Assembly: GCF_041154675.1 (NCBI RefSeq)
Contig: NZ_AP031322.1
Location: 2,107,812 to 2,171,811, forward strand
DNA length: 64,000 nt
Direction: 5' to 3'
Source of the DNA: Sulfurisphaera javensis
Lineage (GTDB): Archaea; Thermoproteota; Thermoprotei_A; Sulfolobales; Sulfolobaceae
The position numbers and the translations under genes are program-made. Below are positions 13,272-23,648 of this stretch, piece after piece (position 1 is the first letter of the stretch; the number at the start of each line of letters is the position of its first letter). A model generated the notes under the pieces. The model was not told the DNA's origin, did not search any database, and saw only the letters and a list, made by a program, of their open reading frames with translations.

Positions 13272-13365
<94 letters not shown>

Positions 13366-20325: not shown

Positions 20326-21478
20326 TTAACTACTGAAAAGCCTTTTTATAAACCATTCCGCATCAAAGGGGATTAGGCTATCGTAATCTTGTCCTATTCC
20401 AAGATATGCAACAGGTTTATTGAGTTCATAAGCTAATGACAATATTATTCCTCCTTTAGCATCAGCATCTACTTTTGTTAGAATAACTGCATCGTATCCT
20501 ACGTTTTCTTCGAAATATTTAGCTTGTTCTAAAGCATCATTGCCAGCTAAAGAGTCTAATACTAGAATTCTCAAATCTGGTTTAGCAATTTTTACTATTC
20601 TCTTTAATTCAGCTACTAAGTCTTGGTCAATATGCATTCTTCCAGCAGTATCAATTAGAACTACGTCTATATTTCTACTTTTTGCCGAATTTATAGCATC
20701 AAAAGCAACTGCTGCGGGGTCTCCTCCATATTTTCCCTTTACAAGAGGTATCTCGAGTTTAGATGCATGATAGGATAGTTGCTCTTGAGCTGCGGCTCTA
20801 AAAGTATCTGAGGCAGAAATTATACATGAGAGTTTATTTTTCTTTAACATATACGCAACTTTTGCTATAGTTGTGGTTTTTCCAACGCCATTTACTCCAA
20901 AGAAGACTATTACATAAGGTTTCTTATTTTTTCTTCTTATTTCTTCTATTATATCTATTCTCTGATTTTTTGTTAGTATTTCTTCTATTGATTTTTTTAA
21001 TGAATTAATAACTAATTTTTCTAAATCTTCACTTCTCTGTACTTTTTTACCTACTAGAACATTTTTTAAATCATCTAGTATTTTTTCTGTTACTTCATAA
21101 GATACATCTGACTCTAACAATTGATATCTAAGCTCTTCTAGTATATCTTGAATATCTTCTTCCTTTATAGTTTTAAATCTAATAAAATCAAAAAATGAGA
21201 ATTTTGATCTCTTGGTTTCTTCTTGTTGTTCAACGTGTTTTTCTTCTGTCTTTTGTTGAGGTTCTTCAATTTTTGGAGGAGCTGGTTGTTGAGCTGTTTG
21301 AGCAATATGAGGCTCTTTAATGGTTTTAGGTTGTTGTTCTTCTTGTTTTGCTAATTGTTCTTCCTTAATAGTCTGTTCAGATTGAGTAGTTGATGTTTGT
21401 GATTGTTCTTCTTGTTTAGATTCACCTTTAAATTTATCTAGGAGATTATTAAAAGCTTTCTTTAATTTATCAAAACAA
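20326..21478 (-). CDS. ftsY: Signal recognition particle receptor FtsY, apparent frameshift after the start codon
   Basis: The NG GTPase domain is complete: GVNGVGKTTTIAK (P-loop), DTFRAAAQEQL, DTAGRMH and TKVDADAKGG. Before it, an open frame to 21480 encodes an acidic Gln/Glu/Pro-rich A region that begins FDKLKKAFNNLLDKF, so the mature protein is about 383 residues. That frame has no ATG, GTG or TTG until 21120. The expected start is the TTG at 21478-21476, 6 nt after a GTG of the Shine-Dalgarno motif, but four Ts follow it instead of three and put it in the wrong frame. A sequencing error, a +1 frameshift, or initiation at ATT (21480) are the options. Confidence 0.85.
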
Positions 21479-21479
21479 A

Positions 21480-21932
21480 TTATCCACCTTTACTTTGTTG
21501 AGCTTGAAGTTGTTGTTGTGCTTGATTCAATATATCTGCAATTTCTTTGTAAGCTTCTAAAGACTTAGCTAATTCTTTTTCAACGTTACTTAATAATGAA
21601 CTAAGTTCAGCCTTTTTATCACTAAGAACTTTAGTAGCAAATTCTGGGTCTACTTCAGCATAATATTCTAGGCCTAGATGAACTAAAACTTTGGCTTTAT
21701 CAACTCCTTGAACCTTAAATATAATATTTCCTTTTTTATCTCCTACCATTAATAATTCTTGATTGTTCTGTAATTCTTTTAATGCTTGTAATGATGAGTC
21801 AATTGACATAATATTATCTTGAAGTTCCGCATATGTCTTCTGCAAATAATCAATATATTTTTTTAGTGCATCAGCTTGAGCTAGTAAATCTTCTAGTGAG
21901 ACTACTACGTTTTGGTTTTCTTCATTACTCAT
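21480..21932 (-). CDS. pfdA: Prefoldin subunit alpha
   Basis: The 150-residue protein has two long heptad helices (about 8-50 and 95-140) joined by a beta-hairpin segment (NQELLMVGDKKGNIIFKVQG), the prefoldin alpha plan. Alpha2beta4 hexamers hand unfolded proteins to the thermosome. The listed start is the ATG at 21932; a GTG at 21941 belongs to the ribosome-binding motif. Its last bases supply the Shine-Dalgarno sequence for ftsY. Confidence 0.93.
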   Translation of the reverse strand: MSNEENQNVVVSLEDLLAQADALKKYIDYLQKTYAELQDNIMSIDSSLQALKELQNNQELLMVGDKKGNIIFKVQGVDKAKVLVHLGLEYYAEVDPEFATKVLSDKKAELSSLLSNVEKELAKSLEAYKEIADILNQAQQQLQAQQSKGG

Positions 21933-21937
21933 AAATA

Positions 21938-22198
<261 letters not shown>

Positions 22199-23138: not shown

Positions 23139-23294
23139 TTACACCTTTAGATCATTTCTTCTCCAATCTCTTCTATGTAAATTGTATCTAAATTTACCAT
23201 TAGTTTTTATAATTACCCAAGCTGGGACTGGGGAATTGCTTTTTAATGCCTTAGCTAACCTTAATTTTCTTCCTAACGGTTTGTTTTTGCTCAT
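23139..23294 (-). CDS. rpl39e: Ribosomal protein L39e
   Basis: A 51-residue frame read directly from the sequence encodes [20 protein letters not shown], then [20 protein letters not shown] and [11 protein letters not shown]. This is the highly basic L39e that lines the peptide exit tunnel. The composition, length and place before L31e are typical. It overlaps the PDCD5-like gene by 4 nt. Confidence 0.95.
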
Positions 23295-23638
23295 TTCCAA
23301 CCCCTTTCTTTAATTGTAATTTTATAATCTTTCCTTGTCTGGTTAGTTAATTGGGCTAAAATTTCTTTTAATTCATCATCAGTTATAGGTGCTTGAATTC
23401 TTCCAGCTTGAGCTAATGCAATTAACTGGTTTTCTATTGCTTCAGCTAAGTCTGGTTTAACTAATTTTACATTAGATAATCTTTGTCTAGCTTCCGGAGT
23501 CAAAATGACTCTCAATATTGCATCCTTTTTTGCTTCTAGTTCAGCTTTTCTTTGTTGCTCTTCTAACGCTTTTCTTTGTTGTTCTAACGCTTTTCTTCTT
23601 AACAACTCCTCTAATTCTGCATCATATTCATCACTCAT
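23291..23638 (-). CDS. DNA-binding protein of the PDCD5 family
   Basis: The 115-residue protein has a charged N-terminal helix ([20 protein letters not shown]) and the three-helix core [35 protein letters not shown] typical of archaeal PDCD5 homologues, described as double-stranded DNA-binding proteins. The function in the ribosomal cluster is unknown. The ATG at 23638 is chosen; the in-frame GTG at 23647 lies in ggtgat, the Shine-Dalgarno motif. Confidence 0.9.
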
Positions 23639-23648
23639 ATTAATCACC

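Follow-up and report, generated by a model that had tools for sequence, protein, structure and literature searches.

The recoding events established in archaea are readthrough of stop codons for selenocysteine and pyrrolysine and a -1 frameshift in the fucA1 gene, as covered in a 2021 review and a companion paper (PMC8211752, PMC8037382), where +1 frameshifting is no more than a suspicion for a single haloarchaeal virus. The subject here is ftsY, the gene for the receptor of the signal recognition particle (SRP), as it occurs on a 64,000 nucleotide (nt) stretch of Sulfurisphaera javensis DNA (contig NZ_AP031322.1, positions 2,107,812 to 2,171,811; referred to below as the window) and in other members of the Sulfolobaceae. 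From comparison of sequences it is proposed, with a probability that we put at roughly 0.8, that Sulfolobaceae ftsY is expressed by way of an obligatory +1 ribosomal frameshift at codon 2. No earlier report of FtsY frameshifting in archaea was found in the open-access literature, a scope that does not extend to older subscription papers on Sulfolobus ftsY.

The closest described systems are viral and bacterial. At the UCC_UUU_CGU site of influenza PA-X the tRNA-Phe in the peptidyl (P) site of the ribosome shifts its pairing from UUU to UUC, a slow codon in the aminoacyl (A) site has been proposed as the stimulator and the codon in the exit (E) site matters (PMC3498833, PMC5009743), and the +1 site of amalgaviruses is UUU_CGN (PMC5052127). 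The proposed ftsY site resembles those of influenza A PA-X and the plant amalgaviruses in its P-site codon, in the re-pairing of tRNA-Phe from UUU to UUC and in an A-site Arg codon of the form CGN, an influence of the E site being known for this class. It differs in belonging to a cellular archaeal gene, in lying at codon 2 directly after the start, in having an A-site UGA in 14 of the species, and in that the shift would be obligatory, there being no protein in the frame of the start codon (the zero frame). In the CUU_UGA site of prfB, the gene for bacterial release factor 2 (RF2), there is likewise a +1 shift of a P-site tRNA next to an A-site UGA, a short zero-frame product and one obligatory shift for a functional protein, and an association of weaker pairing in the E site with higher levels of +1 shifting has been described for RF2 (PMC3498833). 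However, ftsY encodes no release factor, so that autoregulation through UGA recognition is not expected; its Shine-Dalgarno (SD) motif stands at initiation spacing and not beside the slip codon, and the shift is placed at codon 2. Autoregulatory frameshifting of the RF2 type was considered as a class for ftsY and rejected, since the product is FtsY and 17 species carry CGA rather than a stop. The -1 frameshifting of Sulfolobus fucA1 is recoding in the same archaeal order, but it is opposite in direction, occurs in mid-gene and affects a gene that is intact in most species (PMC8211752).

The ftsY start region and its conservation

The identity of the gene is clear from matches above cut-off to Pfam PF02881 (SRP54_N) and PF00448 (SRP54 GTPase) and from its closest solved chains, 5l3w and 5l3s, each of which is named FtsY. 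The source genome is a single contig of 2.57 Mb that is 99.5% complete, and no second intact ftsY was found in it, the sole other match being a paralogue, 29% identical, that is presumably SRP54.

A first-pass annotation of the window had described a good start signal followed by TTG TTTT GAT, with the FtsY frame displaced by one T, and this was confirmed on the minus strand, which reads caacaaagtaaaGGTGgataatTTGTTTTGATAAATTAAAG from 21500 to 21460. The start region (minus strand, 21470-21490) can be divided as GGTG-GATAAT-TTG-TTT-TGA-TAA, that is, GGTG-N6-TTG and then the off-frame codons (Table 1). From 21474 the FtsY frame runs TTT GAT AAA TTA AAG (FDKLK), +1 relative to the TTG, and between the upstream in-frame stop and TTT GAT it holds just AGG TGG ATA ATT TGT. 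The claim that this frame then lacks ATG, GTG or TTG for a long stretch also held, the next such codon being the TTG at 21120, 354 nt downstream.

Table 1. Features of the ftsY start region and its surroundings in the window (Y, pyrimidine; N, any base).
Feature	Position	Strand	Remarks
GGTG, Shine-Dalgarno-type motif	21485..21488	-	N6 then TTG; N6 or N7 from zero-frame start in 30/31 species
TAA stop of prefoldin alpha gene (pfdA)	21480..21482	-	1 nt before TTG; open reading frame (ORF) 21480-21941; Pfam Prefoldin
Zero-frame start codon TTG	21476..21478	-	31 species: TTG 21, CTG 9, ACG 1
Proposed slippery codon 2, UUU, includes extra T	21473..21475	-	tRNA-Phe would re-pair +1 to UUU/UUC; extra T 0 tree changes
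Zero-frame A-site codon at proposed shift, TGA stop	21470..21472	-	TGA in 14, CGA in 17 species
FtsY coding frame after proposed +1 shift (FDKLKKAF...; SRP receptor GTPase)	20326..21474	-	stop 20326-20328; SRP54_N + SRP54 GTPase; codons 2-14 pN/pS 0.22
First conventional in-frame start, TTG	21118..21120	-	within N domain; not conserved; unlikely start

The arrangement was followed through 31 Sulfolobaceae genomes of 11 genera, that of the window included, and ftsY was found in each. In 31/31 species an NTG-like codon is followed by TTT and then YGA, with the FtsY frame at +1, and the consensus of the start region is approximately GGTG-N6/7-YTG_TTT_YGA, GGTG being degraded in the one species in which it does not stand at its usual 6 or 7 nt. 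Neither ATG nor GTG occurs as the zero-frame start, the zero-frame ORF terminates after 2-18 residues, and the codon after the shift is GAY, or GAG in two species. This geometry in 31/31 genomes indicates that the off-frame start is neither chance nor error. The 17 species with CGA as third codon have three Ts only (YTG TTT CGA), and this has a direct bearing on the suggestion in the first-pass annotation of +1 slippage on the T run: slippage itself is supported, but the T run cannot be its basis, and the conserved signal would instead be P-site UUU that can re-pair with UUU or UUC, next to an A-site codon that is rare or a stop. The same 17 species rule out polymerase slippage on the T run, which had been a separate candidate.

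Outside the family the situation is different. The ftsY start region was inspected in 39 genomes that represent ten further families of the order, and 38 have an ordinary in-frame ATG, GTG or TTG at the same place, either directly before or about one codon from the conserved N-terminal segment (e.g. TTG TTC GAC AAG or GTG TTC GAT AAG), with one genome lacking a clear call; a hand count of the nearest starts in the 38 gave TTG 19, ATG 10, GTG 9 and CTG 0. A wider contig scan for FtsY produced mostly bacterial matches and added nothing. In the FtsY tree the 31 Sulfolobaceae species form one clade with support of 100/99, and since they do so while 38 outgroup genomes have in-frame starts, the comparison indicates that a single T was inserted on the Sulfolobaceae stem and was never removed. 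The in-group tree has a length of 12.3 changes per column. Fitch counts on it are 0 changes for the extra T, 1 for the preceding T, 0 for the preceding G and 0 for the two following Ts, as compared with 2-11 for the third positions of codons 2-11.

Constraint on the reading frame and a proposed mechanism

When pooled over codons 2-14, the ratio of non-synonymous to synonymous change (pN/pS) of the FtsY frame is 0.22, as against 0.91 for the zero frame and 1.27 for the third frame, and the conserved residues FDKLKKAF are encoded by many synonymous codons. On this evidence, which is evolutionary and not biochemical, the FtsY frame appears to be translated from the Phe codon onward. The behaviour of the extra T is informative in its own right. 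In the FtsY frame it is the last base of TGT, and TGC is used in every sampled genome, for approximately 20-65% of Cys codons, yet the extra T is never C in the 31 species. Were TGT a plain Cys codon it would drift to TGC, and were the extra T merely a base to be skipped it would drift freely, so neither description fits; invariance as T is what would be expected where UUU must be the slipping codon. Other features of +1 sites are also found here, with U or C following UUU in 31/31 species and the A site holding UGA or CGA, a stop or a rare codon that would be decoded slowly. CGA has a frequency of about 1 in 1000 codons, with values of 0.2-2.4 per 1000 for most genomes and 4.7 per 1000 for one, and AGA and AGG dominate among Arg codons, codon usage having been computed from the window plus 20 kb stretches.

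As a control, orthologues of other genes in the cluster were examined in the same manner. An in-frame start stands at the expected place in the real genes, with the single exception of pdcd5 in genus g10, whereas ftsY was without its expected in-frame start in 13/17 regions; the other failures, judged by position, were ORFs opposite real genes or poorly covered ORFs. Genome scans for GGTG-N5-8-YTGTTTYGA elsewhere gave 0 to 2 extra matches per genome, which is close to what the reversed control gave, and so no other genes carrying the motif were identified beyond that frequency.

The following sequence of events is proposed, its first step on the basis of the motif and its spacing. Initiation would take place at YUG, 6-7 nt past GGTG and, in most species, 1-2 nt past the pfdA stop. 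tRNA-Phe would then decode UUU and enter the P site, at which point the E site would hold the initiator tRNA on a mismatched UUG or CUG and the A site UGA or the very rare CGA. tRNA-Phe would slip by one base to UUU or UUC, GAY (GAG in two species) would be read next and FtsY beginning MFDKLKKAF would be produced, whilst ribosomes that failed to slip would terminate after 2-18 residues. As a result, FtsY would probably be made at a low, fixed yield for every initiation. With the shift placed at codon 2, it is the start codon that occupies the E site, and this codon always mismatches the initiator anticodon; that is compatible with weak E-site pairing, but also with selection for weak initiation.

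A number of observations do not sit comfortably with frameshifting. UUU_YGA follows automatically from a T placed before Phe and Asp or Glu codons, and the A-site codon is thus not independent evidence of selection. No RNA structure or stimulator was found near the site in an ungapped consensus fold of 88 nt from 25 sequences, nor was any found in shuffles; +1 sites of this class carry a stimulatory structure only in some cases. Shifting at the influenza UUU_CGN site is just about 1-2% efficient (PMC5052127), which implies either that the ftsY site is more efficient or that the need for FtsY is small. The draft genome L035 (G008) has ACG_TTT_TGA, the sole exception to YTG, although the +1 geometry and GGTG-N7 are retained. 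In one genus, four species carry a GTG in frame a short way upstream of the Phe codon, but it is not conserved in two further species of that genus.

Alternative explanations

An important consideration is whether the frame is lost before there is any P-site slip. It is conceivable that Phe-tRNA enters directly on the +1 UUY with the initiator tRNA only loosely held on the mismatched YUG, the start and the product being the same. The start codons are in keeping with this, as UUG, CUG and ACG all mismatch the initiator anticodon and AUG and GUG never occur, as against AUG or GUG in 19/38 outgroup genomes, and CTG has been gained in two separate clades of the tree. The initiator tRNA could not, however, re-pair on UGU, the invariance of the extra T is better accounted for by re-pairing on UUU, and to our knowledge loss of frame at initiation or first A-site entry is without precedent. 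This explanation is considered unlikely. About half as probable is non-canonical initiation in the FtsY frame, at AUU, AUA or other codons before TGT, to give M-C-F-D..., a form of which had been offered earlier as AUU initiation at 21480. An in-frame ATT or ATA is indeed present in 14/31 species, that of the window among them, and there are possible AUA or AUU starts elsewhere in the family, in pdcd5 of genus g10. But the codon before TGT is variable, being ATT in 9 species and elsewhere AAT, AGT, AAC, AGC, TTT, TCC, TTC or CGT, TGT never changes to TGC, and 13 species have neither ATA nor ATT nor NTG in the stretch of this frame that runs from the upstream stop to the Phe codon. With no near-cognate start conserved at SD distance, AUU/AUA initiation was rejected as the general mechanism.

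Production of FtsY from a downstream in-frame start, with the N-terminal region missing, is rated marginally lower again. ATG, GTG and TTG codons are present downstream and many archaeal and bacterial receptors have little beyond the NG core (PMC2572998), but the position of the first such codon varies by species from codon 5 to codon 167, in several it is past the SDV motif of the N domain and near the P-loop (codon 160 as against a P-loop at 178; 167 as against 170), and the N-terminal codons are under purifying selection in the FtsY frame. The start at 21120, which had been named in advance as the outcome that would overturn an unusual start, is disfavoured for similar reasons, as it and its equivalents are not conserved and in many species lie within the N domain or past it. 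The least credible explanation is that the gene has decayed or that the sequencing or the assembly is in error. The four-T homopolymer in the window speaks for it, and an erroneous extra T had been suggested in the first-pass annotation, but comparison of relatives excludes it, the arrangement being present in 31 independent species, 17 of them with three Ts only, and there is no other intact ftsY. A fusion of pfdA and ftsY by readthrough or shift was likewise rejected, as the frame in which pfdA ends relative to ftsY differs between genera.

Neighbouring genes and implications for the Sulfolobaceae

The zero-frame start of ftsY follows the pfdA stop at a distance of 1 nt in 18 species and of 2 or 5 nt in the remainder, so close that translation of ftsY may be coupled to termination on pfdA. 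The pdcd5 orthologue (window 23291-23647) of L069 and L104, genus g10, has no in-frame ATG, GTG or TTG, its start region reading GGTGATCTATTATAAGTGGAGAATATGAT, and initiation there is likely to be at AUA (N7 after GGTG) or AUU; in the other genera looked at the start is ATG. At 13272-13360 on the plus strand of the window ARAGORN called a tRNA-Pyl(cta), and Rfam confirms a tRNA; the loop CTCCTAA and a duplicated stem suggest instead a tRNA-Arg(CCU) whose anticodon loop is interrupted by a short intron.

The simplest idea for why a +1 shift in ftsY should have been retained is that it acts as a fixed brake on FtsY synthesis. It is possible to go further and propose that frameshifting is coupled to the start, the mismatched UUG or CUG, never AUG or GUG, being part of the recoding signal with the initiator tRNA in the E site during the slip at codon 2, and that this sets, and perhaps regulates, the amount of SRP receptor throughout the Sulfolobaceae; this is put forward tentatively, its chances being judged somewhat short of even. 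If frameshifting at codon 2 is correct, the whole event would take place in the first elongation cycle, with the initiator tRNA in the E site, the tRNA that slips in the P site and the slow codon in the A site, and the Sulfolobaceae would provide a cellular archaeal case of +1 frameshifting that is family-wide and affects a core protein-targeting gene, in which event the N-termini of FtsY in the family may be misannotated.
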